Positions 2,817 through 14,881 of a stretch of 39,140 bases of DNA are shown piece after piece; position 1 is the stretch's first letter, and every line of letters starts with the position of its first letter. The position numbers and the translations under genes are program-made. This DNA comes from Agrococcus sp. (GTDB taxonomy: Bacteria; Actinomycetota; Actinomycetes; Actinomycetales; Microbacteriaceae). A model generated the notes under the pieces. The model ran no database searches and was not told the DNA's origin. It was given only the letters and a program-made list of their open reading frames with translations. The DNA lies in assembly GCA_031178105.1 (NCBI GenBank), contig JAPSJX010000012.1, positions 1-39,140 on the forward strand. The letters run 5' to 3'.

Positions 2817-4328
2817 TCAGGACACGTCGTCGTCGACCCAGTCGAGCGTCTTCTGCACGGCCTTCTTCCAGTTGCGGTACGTGCGGTCGCGCGCCTCCTG
2901 GTCCATCTGCGGCTCCCAGCGGCGGTCCTCCTGCCACTGCTCGCGCAGCTCGTCGAGCGACGACCAGAAGCCGACGGCGAGACCGGCGGCGTAGGCAGCG
3001 CCGAGCGCCGTCGTCTCGGCGACCACCGGGCGGATGACGGGCACGCGCAGCAGGTCGGCCTGGAACTGCATGAGGGTGTCGTTGGCGATCATGCCGCCGT
3101 CGACCTTGAGCTCCGTGAGGTCGACCCCCGAGTCGGCGTTGACCGCGTCGACGACCTCCGCCGTCTGGAACGCGGTCGCCTCGAGCGCGGCTCGCGCGAT
3201 GTGACCCTTGTTGACGTAGCGCGTGAGGCCGACGAGCGCGCCCCGCGCATCCGGCCGCCAGTAGGGGGCGAAGAGCCCCGAGAACGCCGGCACGAAGTAC
3301 GCGCCGCCGTTGTCGTCGACCGACTTCGCGAGCTGCTCGACCGCCGGCGCGTCTGGGATGAGGCCCAGGTTGTCGCGCAGCCACTGGATGAGCGATCCCG
3401 TCACCGCGATCGACCCCTCGAGCGCGTAGTGGGTGGGCTCGTCGCCGATCTTGTACCCGACCGTCGTGAGCAGCCCGTTCTTCGAGTGGACGATCTCCTC
3501 GCCCGTGTTGAAGATCAGGAAGTTGCCCGTGCCGTAGGTGTTCTTCGCCTCGCCCTGGTCGAACGCGGCCTGACCGAACGTCGCCGCCTGCTGGTCGCCG
3601 AGGATGCCCGTGATGGGCGTCTCGCGCAGCAGCGACTCGGACGCCGCGACGCCGAACTCGCCCGATGACGACTTGATCTCGGGCAGCATCGAGCGCGGCA
3701 CGCCGAAGTCGGCGAGGATCGCGTCGTCCCACTCGAGCGACTCGAGGTCCATGAAGAGCGTGCGCGACGCGTTCGTCACGTCGGTCGCGTGCACCCCGCC
3801 GTTGACGCCGCCCGTGAGGTTCCACAGCACCCAGCTGTCGGTGGTGCCGAACAAGAGGTCGCCTGCCTCCGCCGCCTCGCGCGCGCCCTCGACGTTCTCG
3901 AGGATCCACACGATCTTCGTGCCCGAGAAGTAGGTCGCGAGCGGCAGGCCGACCTTCGACTTGTAGCGGTCGGTGTCGCCGTCGGCGAGCCGGTCGACGA
4001 TCTTCTGCGTGCGGGTGTCCTGCCACACGATCGCGTTGTAGACGGGCTCGCCGGTCCGCCTGTTCCAGACCACGGCGGTCTCGCGCTGGTTGGTGATGCC
4101 GATCGCCTTGACGTTGTGGCGCGTCACGTTGGCCTTCGAGAGCGCCTGGCCGATGACCTCGCGCGTGTTGTTCCAGATCTCCTTCGGGTCGTGCTCGACC
4201 CAGCCCGCCTGCGGGAAGATCTGCTCGTGCTCGAGCTGGCCCGTCGAGACGATGCTCCCCGAGTGGTCGAAGAGGATGGCACGAGTCGAGGTCGTGCCCT
4301 GGTCGATCGCGATGACGTAGTCGTTCAC
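2817..4328 (-). CDS. glpK: Glycerol kinase
   Basis: Phosphorylates glycerol with ATP to glycerol 3-phosphate in the cytoplasm. The 503 residues match GlpK length. FGGY-family features include the N-terminal [16 protein letters not shown] phosphate-binding loop, [15 protein letters not shown], the [14 protein letters not shown] segment, and LKVDGGM near the C-terminus. The GTG start at 4328 is preceded by GAAGGAG, and the reading frame remains open far upstream only because of GC bias. It lies 38 bases after glpF on the same strand, forming a glycerol uptake and phosphorylation operon. No glpD is present in the window. Confidence 0.97.
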
Positions 4329-4366
4329 CGGGACTCCTTCGTTCAGTGATGGATGTGGTGGAGCGA

Positions 4367-5146
4367 TCAGACGGCGAAGCCGGAGACGCCGGCGATGAGC
4401 GCGGGAGCGGACAGGCCCGCGATCACGCCGCCGATGATGGGACCGGCCACCGGGACCCAGGCGTAGCTCCAGTCGCTCGCGCCCTTGCCCTTGATCGGCA
4501 GCACCGCGTGCGCGATGCGGGGCCCGAGGTCGCGCGCCGGGTTGATGGCGTAGCCGGTCGGCCCGCCGAGCGAGGCGCCGATGCTGACGACGAGGAGGGC
4601 GACGGGCAGGGCGCCGAGCGCCGCGAGGCCGCCGGGCACGCCGTCCTCGGTGCCGTTCTGCGCACCGAAGCCGATGACGACGAAGACGAGCACGAAGGTG
4701 CCGATGATCTCGGTGACGAGGTTCCAGCCGTTGTGGCGGATGCCGGGACCGGTCGAGAAGGTGCCGAGCTTCGCGCCCGGGTCCTCCTCCACATCGAAGT
4801 GCTGCTTGTAGGCGAGCCAGCACAGCACGGCGCCGATGAAGGCACCGAGGAACTGCGCCGCGAGGTACACGGGCAGCAGGCCCCAGTCGACCTCGGTGCC
4901 GCTCGCGAGGTCGCGGGCGAGGAGCCCGAAGGTCACCGCCGGGTTGAGGTGGGCGCCGGAGTACGCCGCCACGATCACGCCGGCGAAGACCGCGAGGCCC
5001 CAGCCGAAGTTGATCATCAGGAAGCCGCCGCCATAGCCCTTGTTGCCCTTGAGCACGACGTTCGCGACCACGCCGCATCCGAGCAGGACGAGCATCGCCG
5101 TGCCCACCAGCTCTGAGAGGAAGACCAGACCGAGGTTGGGTTCCAT
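4367..5146 (-). CDS. glpF: Glycerol uptake facilitator (aquaglyceroporin, MIP family)
   Basis: Inner-membrane channel for facilitated glycerol diffusion. The 259 residues carry both half-helix motifs: [11 protein letters not shown] in the first half and [14 protein letters not shown] in the second. The NPARD form with Asp after the second NPA is characteristic of glycerol-conducting rather than water-specific channels. The ATG at 5146 is preceded by GCAGGGAC. It is the first gene of the glpF-glpK operon and is divergent from dhaKLM across a 175-base intergenic region that contains a palindrome. Confidence 0.95.
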
Positions 5147-5179
5147 AGTCCCTGCTTTCTCGTCCACGGGCGCCGTCGC

Positions 5180-5205
5180 CCGTACCGCCCATCCGGGTGG
5201 TACGG
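5180..5205. promoter_or_regulatory. Palindrome in the glpF-dhaK divergent promoter region
   Basis: Two 11-base arms (CCGTACCGCCC and GGGTGGTACGG) around a 4-base ATCC centre differ from perfect symmetry at one pair. A TATCGT hexamer on the minus strand at 5211-5216 could be the glpF -10 box, which would put the palindrome over the glpF start site. It is a plausible operator for glycerol or dihydroxyacetone control, or a 5'-UTR hairpin. No local regulator gene is next to it. Confidence 0.5.
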
Positions 5206-5321
5206 CACACGATAGTGGTGGCCGCGGCCGGATCCGAGAGATCTTCGATGGGCGTGATCGAGATTCCAGCCACCGGGGCGTAGCGTGAGCGCAACCGGCC
5301 CAGCAGAAGGAGAGGCGCACT

Positions 5322-6326
<1,005 letters not shown>

Positions 6327-6342
6327 CGGCGCCGTGGCCGGG

Positions 6343-6972
6343 ATGGACGGCGCCGGGCTCGACGGTGCGTGGACGAGGCGCTGGATCGAGGCGGTCGCCG
6401 CCGAGGTCGCGCGCCGCAAGCAGGAGCTGACGGCGCTCGACCGCGCGATCGGCGACGCCGACCACGGCGAGAACCTCGACCGCGGGTTTCGGGCGGTGCT
6501 CGGCAAGCTCGAGGCGCTCGACGACGATGCGACGCCGGGCGCGGTGCTGAAGCTCGTCGCGACGACCCTCATCTCGACGGTCGGCGGCGCCGCCGGACCG
6601 CTCTACGGCACCGCGTTCCTCAAGGGCTCGATGGCGGCGGGCGACCGCGCTGCGCTCGACGCGGCCGCCCTCGTCGAGGTGCTGACGGCGGCGCGCGACG
6701 GCATCGTCGCCCGCGGCAAGGCGGAGCCCGGCGACAAGACCATGGTGGATGCGTGGACCCCGGCCGTCGACGCCGCGGCGGCTGCCGGCGACGACGTGCG
6801 GGCTGCCCTCCAGGCCGCCGCGGCCGCGGCCGCCGAGGGTGCCGCCGCGACCGAGCCGCTCGTGGCGCACAAGGGCCGCGCCTCGTACCTCGGCGAGCGC
6901 GCCGTCGGCCATCGCGACCCGGGCAGCGAGTCGACCTCGCTGATGCTGCGCGCCGCGGCGGACACGGCGTGA
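6343..6972 (+). CDS. dhaL: Dihydroxyacetone kinase, nucleotide-binding subunit DhaL
   Basis: Carries the Mg-ADP/ATP that is rephosphorylated by DhaM and transfers phosphate to DhaK-bound dihydroxyacetone. The 209-residue protein shows the Mg-binding [13 protein letters not shown] motif near the N-terminus, the [14 protein letters not shown] segment, and [12 protein letters not shown], all typical. The ATG at 6343 is chosen; an in-frame GTG 9 bases upstream is an alternative with better spacing from a GGGGACGG stretch. The stop overlaps the dhaM start by 4 bases (GTGA), indicating translational coupling. Confidence 0.94.
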
Positions 6973-7622
6973 GCGTCGGGCTCGTCATCGTCTCGCACTC
7001 CGCGCGCATCGCCGAGGGGGTGGTCGAGCTCGCCGCCCAGATGGCGCCGACCGTGACGATGATCGCCGCCGGCGGCACCGACGACGGCGGCATCGGCACG
7101 AGCTTCGACCGCGTGCAGGCGGCCCTCGGCGAGGCGGACTCCGGCGCGGGCGTCGTGGTGCTGTGCGACCTCGGCTCCGCCGTGCTCACTGCCGAGACGG
7201 CCATCGACTTCGCCGAGGCGCCCGAGCGCATCCGCATCGCCGACGCGCCGATCGTCGAGGGCGCGGTCGCCGCCGCGGTCGCCGCGGAGGCAGGGGGATC
7301 GATGGCCGAGGTGGTCGCCGCAGCGCAGCCGCCGGCCGCCCCGTCTGCCGCGGCCCGGGAGGACCGTGCCGCGGCGACCCTCGAGATCGTGCTCGAGAAC
7401 GAGCACGGGCTGCACGCGCGGCCCGCCTCCGAGCTCGTGCGCACGGCGAGCCGCTTCGACGCCGCGGTCACCGTGAACGGCGTCGACGCGAGGAGCCTGC
7501 TGCGCGTGCTCGCGCTCGGGCTGGACCGAGGCTCGACGATCCTCGTCGAGGCGACCGGGGCGCAGGCCGACGACGCGATCGACGCCATCGGCGCCCTCGT
7601 GCGCGAGGGGTTCGGCGAGTAG
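6969..7622 (+). CDS. dhaM: Dihydroxyacetone kinase phosphotransfer subunit DhaM (EIIA-HPr fusion)
   Basis: Relays phosphate from the PTS to DhaL-bound ADP. Residues 1-105 form the mannose-family EIIA domain, with the phospho-accepting His10 in VIVSHSARIAEGV. A linker rich in Ala and Pro follows. Residues 137-217 form an HPr domain with the active histidine at 149 in GLHARPAS. The Enzyme I-like domain found at the C-terminus of E. coli DhaM is absent, so PEP-dependent phosphorylation must come from a separate EI outside the window. The start codon overlaps dhaL. Confidence 0.94.
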   Translation: MSVGLVIVSHSARIAEGVVELAAQMAPTVTMIAAGGTDDGGIGTSFDRVQAALGEADSGAGVVVLCDLGSAVLTAETAIDFAEAPERIRIADAPIVEGAVAAAVAAEAGGSMAEVVAAAQPPAAPSAAAREDRAAATLEIVLENEHGLHARPASELVRTASRFDAAVTVNGVDARSLLRVLALGLDRGSTILVEATGAQADDAIDAIGALVREGFGE

Positions 7623-7907
7623 CTACCGCGCGACGTGCGCCGCGAACTCGTCCGCGGTGACGCGTGCGGCGACGAACGAGCACTGCGGGAGGATGCGCCT
7701 GCCCTCGGCGATCGTGCGCCGGAGCGCCTCGTCGACGAGCGTGGCGCCGATGCCGCGGCCGCCGAACGCCGGGTCGACCTCGGTGTGCGGGAAGCCCCGC
7801 ACGCCCTCGCCGTCGCGGTAGTCGGCGAAGCCGGCGAGCGCACCGTCCACGTGCGCCTCGAAGCGCTGGGCCTGGGGGTTGTCGACGATCTCGATCTGCT
7901 CGGTCAT
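7623..7907 (-). CDS. Small GNAT-type N-acetyltransferase (YjdJ-like)
   Basis: A 94-residue minimal acetyltransferase. The sequence VDPAFGGRGIGATLVDEAL is the acetyl-CoA pyrophosphate-binding loop (R/Q-x-x-G-x-G/A). A RILPQCSFVAARV strand near the C-terminus, with a Cys, matches the small YjdJ/Gcn5-related group, whose usual tail is C-x-F/Y. Its stop codon abuts the convergent dhaM stop with no gap. The acceptor substrate is unknown. Confidence 0.8.
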   Translation of the reverse strand: MTEQIEIVDNPQAQRFEAHVDGALAGFADYRDGEGVRGFPHTEVDPAFGGRGIGATLVDEALRRTIAEGRRILPQCSFVAARVTADEFAAHVAR

Positions 7908-12313: not shown

Positions 12314-14506
12314 TCAGCCCTCCGGAGCGTCGCCCAGCTCGAGCAGCCGGCGGAACAGCTCGAGCACCTCCTCGGGCAGCAGCGGCTCGGCGACCGTGAC
12401 GTCGTAGCGCGTCTCGACGGTCACCCGCCACAGCGGCGCATCGGGGAGCGCATGCCCGTCGAGCTCGGCGAGCCGACCGGATGCCACGAGCGTGTCGAGG
12501 CGCTCCCGGTCGTCGCCGGGGATCACCTCGAGCTCCAGCACCGCCGCGCGCGTGCGCCCCAGCATGCCGCCCGTGCGGGCGACGCGGATCGCCTCCTCCG
12601 GCGAGCCCTCGCCGGCCGGGGGCTCGCCCACGCCGACCGCCGCCCAGGCGTCCCGCACCGCGCGCGTCTCCGCCGCGTCGTCGCCGAAGCGTGCTCGTGC
12701 CGCCTCCACCGTCGCGGTCGCGAACGCCGCGAAGTCGGCGGTGGCGGGCAGGCCGCCGGTCAGCGCATCCATCCAGATGCGCCCCGCCGCCTCCCACGCG
12801 TGACCGCCGATCGCGGTCGCGGCGAGGTGGAACGCCTTGTTGGGGATCCCGGAGTTGATGTGCACTCCGCCGAGGTCGTCGGTCGTCACGACGAAGTCGC
12901 GCATGTGGCCCGGCTGCGGGTCCTTGCCGAGCACCGGGTCGTCGTACGCGGTGCCGGGCTCGGCCATCGAGCGCAGCGCCACCCCCTGCACCTGCTCGGT
13001 GAAGACGCCGGCACCGATGAGCCAGTCGGCCTCAGCGGCCGTCTGGCCGAGCGAGTGCTGCTTCACGAGCGCCCCGAGCACGTCGGCGATCGACTCGTTC
13101 AGCGCACCGGGCTGATCGCGGTAGACGAGATCGGCGGTCGACGAGATGACGCCGTGGCCGAGCTCGTGCCCGATCACGTCGATCGACTGCGTGAAGCCGG
13201 CGAAGACCTCCCCGTCCCCGTCGCCGAAGACCATCCGCTCGCCGTCCCAGAAGGCGTTGTCGTAGCGCGTGCCGTAGTGCACGGTCGCGAGCAGGGGCAT
13301 GCCGGCGTCGTCGAGCGAGTCGCGGCCGAACGCATCGTGCAGCATCCGCCAGGCGAGGCCGAGGCCGTCGAACGCCTCGTCGGCCGCCGGGTCGCCGGTG
13401 GGCTCGTCGCCCTCCCACCGCACTGCCGTGCCCGGCAGCGTGGTCGTCCCCTTCGCGTCGCTCACCGTGCGGTCCGGGGCAGCCTCGCCGGGCACGAGCG
13501 TCGGGCGGGCCGCCGCGCCGCCGGGCCGCGGAGCCTCAGCACGGGCGGCTCGCGCGACGCGGCCCACTCGGAGGTCGCCGTCGAGCCGGAGCGTGCGCTC
13601 GGCGACGGCGGAGGCCGCGGTGGGCGCCGCGGCGATCCGCTCGAGCAGGAAGGGCGGCACGATGCCGTGCCGCGCGGTGAGCGCGTCGGCGGCGAGCTCG
13701 GACGGTGCCGGGGCGGCCGGGCCGAGCTCGCCGTCGACGAGCGGGGCGATGAGGCTGGACCAGACGAAGTAGCCGGCGGCCGACGGGTGGAAGCCGTCGG
13801 CGGCGTGCATCGAGGGGTCGAGGATCGCGGGCGTCGGGAGGTGGACGACGCGGGGCTCGCTCGCCGCGACCCGCTGCAGCGCGTCGTCGAGGCTTCGGGC
13901 GTGGCCGCCGATGAGCGACCGGACGGGCTGCGGCAGCCACTCGAAGGTGTCGATCTGCGGCGCGCCGGCGAGTCCGATGACACCGCCGGGGGAGAGATGC
14001 TCGCGGAGCCCGCCGACCAGCGCGCGAACCGTGCGCTCGAAGGCGGCCCGCCCGACGAGCTGCAGCGCGTCGTTCGCGCCGACGAGCAGCAGCACGACGT
14101 CCCAGCGACCCTCGATCGCCGGCAGGTGGCGCTCGAGCACCTGCGCGGCGGTCGAGCCCTCGAGGCCCTCGATGCGCCACTCCACGCGCTGCCGGCGTCG
14201 ACCGGCGAGGCGCCTCGCGGTCTGCACGGCGAGCGTCTCGTCGAGCAGATCCACCCCGACGCCCGTCGCCGTGGAATCGCCGATCGCGAGCACGCGCAGG
14301 GGCGCGCCGTCGCCCTCGCCGACGGCGCCCGAGCGGGCGCCCTGCGGCTCCGGCAGCCACACGAGCGACGACTGCAGCGCCTTGCCCTGCCGCAGCAGCA
14401 CCGGTGCCAGCGCGAACGCAGCGGGCCGGGCGAGGCGGTGGACGGTGCGCTCCACCCGCTTCGACGTCGAGGCGGCGGCCGCGCCGATCCGTGCTGCGAT
14501 GCTCAT
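12314..14506 (-). CDS. SGNH hydrolase - M4 protealysin-like protease - emfourin-like inhibitor fusion
   Basis: One uninterrupted 730-residue ORF with three modules. Residues 68-256 are a GDSL/SGNH esterase: AIGDSTATGVG with Ser78, a GAND block with Asn145, and DGFHPSAAGY giving Asp237 and His240. Residues 280-295 read HGIVPPFLLERIAAAP, matching the short propeptide motif of protealysin-type M4 proteases. Residues 345-625 are the peptidase: HELGH (His447, Glu448, His451), NESIAD with the third zinc ligand Glu471, and GGVHINSGI with His549. Residues 637-730 (RVARTGGMLGR onward) resemble emfourin, the protealysin inhibitor normally encoded by a separate adjacent gene. No clear signal peptide is seen; a weak hydrophobic stretch lies at residues 26-38. 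ATG 14506 is the first start giving the SGNH N-terminus. All catalytic residues are intact. Confidence 0.9.
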   Translation of the reverse strand: MSIAARIGAAAASTSKRVERTVHRLARPAAFALAPVLLRQGKALQSSLVWLPEPQGARSGAVGEGDGAPLRVLAIGDSTATGVGVDLLDETLAVQTARRLAGRRRQRVEWRIEGLEGSTAAQVLERHLPAIEGRWDVVLLLVGANDALQLVGRAAFERTVRALVGGLREHLSPGGVIGLAGAPQIDTFEWLPQPVRSLIGGHARSLDDALQRVAASEPRVVHLPTPAILDPSMHAADGFHPSAAGYFVWSSLIAPLVDGELGPAAPAPSELAADALTARHGIVPPFLLERIAAAPTAASAVAERTLRLDGDLRVGRVARAARAEAPRPGGAAARPTLVPGEAAPDRTVSDAKGTTTLPGTAVRWEGDEPTGDPAADEAFDGLGLAWRMLHDAFGRDSLDDAGMPLLATVHYGTRYDNAFWDGERMVFGDGDGEVFAGFTQSIDVIGHELGHGVISSTADLVYRDQPGALNESIADVLGALVKQHSLGQTAAEADWLIGAGVFTEQVQGVALRSMAEPGTAYDDPVLGKDPQPGHMRDFVVTTDDLGGVHINSGIPNKAFHLAATAIGGHAWEAAGRIWMDALTGGLPATADFAAFATATVEAARARFGDDAAETRAVRDAWAAVGVGEPPAGEGSPEEAIRVARTGGMLGRTRAAVLELEVIPGDDRERLDTLVASGRLAELDGHALPDAPLWRVTVETRYDVTVAEPLLPEEVLELFRRLLELGDAPEG

Positions 14507-14593: not shown

Positions 14594-14881
14594 TCAGCGA
14601 CCCAGCCGCATCCGCACGTCCATCGCGTCGCCGACGCCGACGCCCTCCGCGCGCTGCACCGCCACCTTCAGCGGCAGCAGGTACCCGCCGTCGCGCGGGA
14701 AGAGCGAGGTCGTGAACGTGGTGCGACCGATGGTCGCCTCCACCGGGATCGCGCCCCACCCGTAGGTGAGCTCGCTCGCGCTCTCGTGGATCAGCTCGGA
14801 CTCGTCGGGTGGCACCGGCAGGAAGACGAAGGGCGCGGGGCCTCGCCACTCGATCGCGACCGCGCTGAAGTCGAGCTCCAT
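14594..14881 (-). CDS. DUF1905 domain protein
   Basis: A 95-residue single-domain protein. The opening residues FSAVAIEWRGPAPFVFLPVP, then YGWGAIPVEATIGRTTFTTSLFPRDGGYLLPLK, follow the DUF1905 pattern (W-G..p..v...G...f..sl...dG.y.lplk..vr). The function of the family is unknown. It sits between the divergent DsbA-like gene and the SGNH-protease gene, and may share a transcript with the latter, 87 bases downstream. Confidence 0.85.
   Translation of the reverse strand: MELDFSAVAIEWRGPAPFVFLPVPPDESELIHESASELTYGWGAIPVEATIGRTTFTTSLFPRDGGYLLPLKVAVQRAEGVGVGDAMDVRMRLGR

Follow-up and report, generated by a model that had tools for sequence, protein, structure and literature searches.

A predicted self-cleavage site at the joint of an SGNH hydrolase–protealysin–emfourin fusion in Agrococcus

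How can one polypeptide carry a hydrolase, a protease and that protease's own inhibitor? The question is raised by a gene in the window, the 39,140-nucleotide stretch of Agrococcus sp. DNA (contig JAPSJX010000012.1 of assembly GCA_031178105.1) analyzed here. A first-pass annotation had noted an uninterrupted frame of 730 codons at this place, naming no strand. The frame is real and lies on the minus strand, running from 14506 down to 12314 (730 codons and a stop). The G+C content of the region is about 75%, which leaves the antisense frame on the plus strand open as well, for all 731 codons of 12314-14506, so frame length is weak evidence here. The frame is judged genuine by comparison: the same stop-free three-module frame is present in 14 of the 24 genomes of the genus, and its codons are under constraint. 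We give an even chance to the reading that the gene encodes a genus-specific, tri-modular pro-enzyme, with an SGNH esterase, a protealysin propeptide, an M4 protease and emfourin in that order. The features of the locus are as follows.

12314..14506, minus strand: coding sequence of the SGNH–protealysin–emfourin fusion, 730 amino acids plus stop, ATG start
14309..14506, minus strand: N-terminal stretch, residues 1-66, with a predicted long basic amphipathic helix at 2-47; tentative (block pLDDT 51-67)
13721..14308, minus strand: SGNH hydrolase module, residues 67-262, with Ser78, Asn145, Asp237 and His240 (PF13472 and fold match)
13673..13720, minus strand: linker 1, residues 263-278, variable and probably disordered (from pLDDT and pN/pS)
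13652..13672, minus strand: predicted self-cleavage site R279-H-G|I-V-P-P285, with the putative cut between G281 and I282 (from alignment to protealysin)
13508..13663, minus strand: protealysin-type short propeptide with PPL motif, residues 282 to about 333 (phmmer alignment to 2vqx)
12629..13507, minus strand: M4 protealysin-like metalloprotease, residues about 334 to 626, with HELGH 447-451, E471 and H549
12587..12628, minus strand: linker 2, residues 627-640, variable (pN/pS 0.93; pLDDT 63 for residues 631-640 of the full-length model)
12341..12586, minus strand: emfourin module, residues 641-722, with an R-T-G-G-x-x-G signature at 644-650
14594..14881, minus strand: DUF1905 gene (Pfam PF08922), directly upstream of the fusion and a conserved neighbor

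The identity of the three modules, first proposed from the letters of the DNA, was borne out by separate Pfam matches, all above their cut-offs: Lipase_GDSL_2 (PF13472) at residues 74-246 (E 6.3e-18, 66.3 bits, cut-off 32.9), Peptidase_M4 (PF01447) at 364-454, Peptidase_M4_C (PF02868) at 458-626, and Emfourin (PF20242) at 642-721, with 38.1 bits in the whole fusion protein and 42.1 bits for the module alone against a cut-off of 27. The C-terminal residues 637-730, on which the proposed inhibitor depended, thus do match emfourin. Both catalytic sets were also numbered correctly, since Ser78, Asn145 and Asp237/His240 of the hydrolase and HELGH 447-451, Glu471 and His549 of the protease are all present in the protein. 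Across the fused proteins (14/14), GDSL, M4, M4_C and Emfourin were matched at a best E of 2e-10 or better (Pfam, E≤1), and the M4 catalytic residues (HExxH, Glu, His) are invariant, as are S78, N145, D237, H240 and G117, the last of which we take to be the glycine of SGNH block II. Among PDB sequences, the closest phmmer match was the protealysin precursor 2vqx (E 7.5e-103), in an alignment that begins at residue 276. NCBIfam returned two protease families only, both far under cut-off, and no name covering the whole protein. The seven Pfam families listed at E≤1 for the fusion protein did not include the FTP/PepSY long-propeptide family, and no signal peptide was seen by eye at the N-terminus.

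Each module has a known relative, from which it differs in how it is connected. With the protealysin of Serratia proteamaculans (2vqx), the fusion shares the M4 catalytic residues, the PPL-motif propeptide region and the position of the first self-cut site; seven residues precede that cut in protealysin, according to the available text of PMC6778150, whereas a 281-residue SGNH part precedes it in the fusion. The inhibitor of protealysin is a separate protein (PMC9505478, available text), while that of the fusion is attached. Emfourin (M4in, PF20242, 6zyg) has in common with the fusion module the R-[ST]-G-G signature and an above-cut-off profile match, and the fold match is weak; emfourin is elsewhere a separate operon partner, and in the fusion a variable linker of 14 residues ties it to the protease. 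Finally, TesA, EstL5 and CrmE10 share the fold and the SGNH residues of the hydrolase module, a predicted esterase, but were solved as separate chains and do not have its 66 extra N-terminal residues.

Structure prediction agreed with these assignments to different degrees. The AlphaFold2 model of the full-length protein (61 alignment rows) had a mean pLDDT of 83.9 and a pTM of 0.54; its SGNH part is based on thin data, with 3 of the 61 rows spanning the whole of it, and residues 265-279 fell below a pLDDT of 50. The protease part superposed on 2vqx with Z 43.8 and an rmsd of 1.0 over 286 residues, and the SGNH part matched SGNH esterases at fold Z 15-17. A model of protease plus emfourin (56 rows) reached a mean pLDDT of 90.5 and a pTM of 0.71. 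Its local confidence is good, but we judge this pTM insufficient to assign emfourin a fixed place on the protease, and occupation of the protease cleft by the inhibitor is putative. The pairing of protealysin with emfourin is supported by Pfam and PDB sequence matches and more weakly by fold: in Foldseek, the next match after 26 M4 chains was emfourin 6zyg, a weak one (E 0.015, prob 0.99, TMt 0.35, rmsd 8.7). A profile of 25 emfourin modules gave 6zyg as its only match at E≤1 (E 0.21); single-sequence PDB searches did not retrieve it, and the VIA-align lists held no emfourin chain. At the other end of the protein, the predicted helix 2-47 was basic and amphipathic in 4/14 proteins checked, with moments up to 0.72 in the window protein and 0.86 in L014, and it is a possible membrane-surface anchor.

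Two elements had gone unremarked in the first-pass annotation: the PPL-motif propeptide, which is a first latency device, and the coincidence of protealysin's first self-cut with the SGNH|protease junction. According to the available text of PMC6778150, protealysin makes its first, intracellular self-cut just before the PPL motif (Arg-Ser|Val-Ile-Pro-Pro) and loses only those few leading residues. In the fusion, the PPL motif reads IVPPFLL (residues 282-288) and lies between SGNH and protease. Aligned on 2vqx, the bond cut in protealysin corresponds to G281|I282, at the end of the SGNH module and its drifting linker, and R279, G281, I282, V283, P284 and P285 are invariant in 14/14 fused proteins. 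The P1 residue is Gly, in contrast to Ser in protealysin. In a survey of 110 loci, a few of them duplicates, 6 lacked the motif, and P1' was I in 92, F in 6 and V in 6 of the remaining 104. The end of the propeptide was estimated from the mature N-terminus of protealysin as given in the available text of PMC7311988. The Pfam family PLN_propep (PF16485) matched 0/14 fused proteins at E≤1 and 3/10 other protealysin-like frames at E≤1e-3, all under cut-off. In four Microbacterium loci (L052, L062, L069 and L101), the motif is IVPAYLL, IVPGYLL or IIPAYLL, and the second proline is missing.

From these features we propose, with equal weight for and against and by analogy with protealysin, that the fusion is a self-resolving polyprotein. 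Made without a signal peptide, it would remain intracellular, like protealysin. Next, the pro-protease would make the protealysin-type first self-cut before the PPL motif, at G281|I282, freeing the esterase and leaving a chain of propeptide, protease and emfourin. The protease would remain latent under the propeptide and under an emfourin attached in cis in a 1:1 ratio, and it would become fully active only once both were removed, as might happen on cell lysis. The release of the esterase is predicted because the protealysin-type cut site is exactly the SGNH–protease junction; the site is, moreover, invariant (14/14) and directly follows a variable linker with pLDDT below 50. For the more specific claim, that the first propeptide cut of a latent protease releases the N-terminal esterase and that the in-cis inhibitor holds the protease off until a later trigger, we put the chances a little short of even. 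The experimental basis for the cut comes from the protealysin of a distant Gram-negative, as far as the available text of the source goes, and emfourin is reported to bind protealysin 1:1 at its active-site region (PMC9505478, available text). Since emfourin is an inhibitor of protealysin, its presence in cis might prevent the first cut as well. The hydrolase had been proposed as cargo, activator or lipid sensor of the protease; because protealysin's first self-cut falls at the SGNH|protease junction, released cargo is now the likelier of these roles.

Constraint within the genus follows the module boundaries. The fused proteins of the 14 genomes are 71-88% identical to the window protein (P0002), and they include the two named full-length matches, from Agrococcus baldri (L032 and L033, which by coordinates coincide with G019 and G010). 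Over 13 of the 14 fused sequences (the near-duplicate L013 was dropped; Nei-Gojobori counts without codon-bias correction), pN/pS was 0.46 for SGNH, 0.34 for M4 and 0.33 for emfourin, 0.60 for both the propeptide and the N-terminus, and 0.92 for linker 1 (over residues 256-279) and 0.93 for linker 2. The mean identity of linker 1 was 36%. Thus, constraint is on the modules, and the two linkers drift almost freely.

Could the protease instead be started separately, from within the fused gene? The window protein has no in-frame ATG, GTG or TTG in the SGNH–protease junction. Between the end of SGNH and IVPP, such codons are lacking in 8/14 fused genes and present in 6/14, and we rejected an internal protease start as a general rule.

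Relatives in the genus show the same parts in other arrangements. In G005 and G006, SGNH and protease–emfourin are adjacent genes, the stop codon of the first overlapping the start codon of the second as ATGA, the usual sign of coupled translation. In G011, they stand at distant loci and both halves remain open; DUF1905–SGNH lies on one side of the break (L114) and protease–emfourin–TPP on the other (L018), and this locus is torn apart by a rearrangement between SGNH and protease. By eye, the protease half in L018 abuts an apparent truncated comF gene, and its sole start within the 45 codons checked is a GTG, four codons before the IVPP site. Three further genomes of the 24-genome survey (G009, G021 and G023) possess protease–emfourin but gave no match for SGNH. 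In G020 there is an emfourin piece only, at a contig end in a locus of 1,713 bases, which was counted as uninformative; G015 has only a weak SGNH relative (31%), and G003 and G012 gave no match in this survey. In the 14 fused loci, the gene order is DsbA-like (divergent), DUF1905, fusion; DUF1905 adjoins SGNH in all of them, as it does in the three genomes where SGNH is split off; and a convergent TPP-enzyme gene follows in 13 of the 14 fetched stretches, the exception (L011) being perhaps too short. The protease–emfourin genes of G009, G021 and G023 are also found beside DsbA-like and DUF1905 genes.

The length of sequence ahead of the cut site varies widely among these arrangements, from 3 residues (MHG) in G009, G023 and probably G021, through 11-12 in the split G005 and G006, to 281 in the fusion, and by sequence this leader looks dispensable. 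The simplest reading would be that whatever precedes the site is removed. In the loci of the three short-leader genomes (L019-L021, for G023, G021 and G009 in this order), the nearest ATG gives M-H-G-I-V-P-P and so leaves three residues ahead of the expected self-cut, although in G021 there are further in-frame starts upstream.

Rather than being cut, the chain might remain whole, as a stable bifunctional protein in which the attached SGNH places or regulates the latent protease, for instance by keeping it at lipid membranes with the help of the amphipathic N-terminal helix. Conservation of the SGNH catalytic residues in every fused protein would fit such a protein, as would the basic and amphipathic character predicted for the helix, and of the 17 genus genomes that possess both SGNH and protease, 16 have the two fused or adjacent. 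However, the linker drifts almost unconstrained and terminates at a self-cut site of known type, the helix is of low confidence, and the parts are neighboring but separate genes in two species and stand at distant loci in another. We regard a stable bifunctional protein as unlikely, though it deserves consideration. Nearly as much weight, and still a minor one, goes to a near-neutral operon fusion, in which ATGA coupling and read-through fusion are interchangeable and the two enzymes have unrelated jobs and share only their expression. The ATGA overlap in both adjacent-gene species, the near-neutral linkers and the alternation of split and fused states are in its favor, but 14 genomes stay fused, and in the eight fused genes with no common start codon in the junction there is therefore no separate protease start by such a codon. 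This account overlaps our main hypothesis if self-cleavage occurs.

The self-resolving polyprotein also bears on how the arrangements may have arisen. As such a polyprotein, the fused form and two ATGA-overlapping genes would be interchangeable without loss of either enzyme. In both the protease–emfourin tree and the SGNH tree, the split genes of G005 and G006 nest among fused genes. The protease tree requires three changes, and its shortest reading is one gain and two losses (G011 not counted). A gyrB tree requires four, one of which is owed to the uninformative G020, and places G009/G021/G023 and G012/G015 outside the fused crown. This tree holds 22 of the 24 genomes and is rooted at the midpoint; G000 had no match over the cut-off and G003 gave only pieces. 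A search with rpoB found 28 of 30 genomes, with G000 missing, and gyrB was taken for the tree instead. Parsimony, applied to trees with open nodes, suggests a direction from fused to split. The joining of protease and emfourin probably came before the addition of SGNH, because the sister lineage (G009, G021 and G023) has the former without the latter. Agrococcus thus offers a natural series for the passage from operon to polyprotein, with the protease–inhibitor pair only, the ATGA-adjacent genes, the fusion, and the parts rearranged away from each other.

How much of this architecture is particular to the genus? The added SGNH is the rare part, whereas protease and emfourin in one chain are not unusual: of 80 loci, 25 carry both in one stop-free frame, 54 in separate frames, and in 1 no emfourin was found. 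Two of the 25 are from Agrococcus, and the others are 23 of the 78 non-Agrococcus loci (within L034-L111), in Knoellia, Janibacter, Terrabacter, Phycicoccus, Micropruina and other genera. We take most of these non-Agrococcus fusions to belong to Intrasporangiaceae and Micropruina. Judged from sequence, protease–emfourin fusion is a wider theme of the Actinobacteria. These two-module chains are like the fusion in having protease and emfourin in one stop-free frame but have no SGNH match, either in the chain or in flanks of up to 5 kb (E≤1e-3). Among 10 long upstream frames, from 10 of the 78 non-Agrococcus loci, Pfam found no other N-terminal partners of protealysin-like proteases (E≤1e-3). In one non-Agrococcus locus (L111, Brevibacterium sp. 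W7.2), the emfourin profile matches downstream of the protease in two pieces parted by an insert.

The triple chain itself was seen only in Agrococcus when the full architecture was searched for more widely. No such chain outside the genus was found in 297 genomes of the order (94 genera, E≤1e-18, 3 candidates scored per genome), where the full-length matches were G000 and G018, both of the window's genus, or in 396 genomes of the phylum (237 genera, E≤1e-20, 2 candidates scored per genome), where G000 alone was full-length; with 3 and 2 candidates scored, a divergent triple fusion could escape these searches. Nor is the triple fusion described among the titles and abstract openings of the literature matches listed. 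The modules and the protease–emfourin pairing were known already, and new relative to the matches listed is the three-part chain with a predicted cut site at its joint.

The in-cis chains are also relevant to the view of emfourin as an immunity protein. A toxin/immunity model has been proposed for Serratia (PMC9505478, available text), and by extension the fusion might be an antibacterial effector, with the protease as a competition toxin and emfourin as its built-in immunity domain. Protealysin and emfourin do share an operon, and protealysin cleaves FtsZ and RecA without emfourin (same source, available text). A covalently attached immunity domain, however, would travel with the toxin and give siblings no selective protection, and the scanned neighbors are DUF1905, DsbA-like and TPP-enzyme genes; we consider this explanation very improbable. 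An assembly or sequencing artefact, or a chance frame in such G+C-rich DNA, has a negligible probability and is ruled out, even with a window assembly that is 65% complete in 126 contigs and an open antisense frame, by the codon-level constraint and the recurrence of the frame in other genomes of the genus, four of the 14 fused ones being single-contig assemblies (G001, G002, G016 and G017).

What protealysin-like proteases and emfourin do seems not yet settled, and an inhibitor joined covalently to its protease speaks for a latency device in these Actinobacteria. If the self-resolving polyprotein is real, emfourin would be in these lineages a built-in safety catch, not an immunity protein. 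Elsewhere in the window, the translations at 2817-7660 appear by eye to be a glycerol kinase and apparent subunits of a PTS-dependent dihydroxyacetone kinase.
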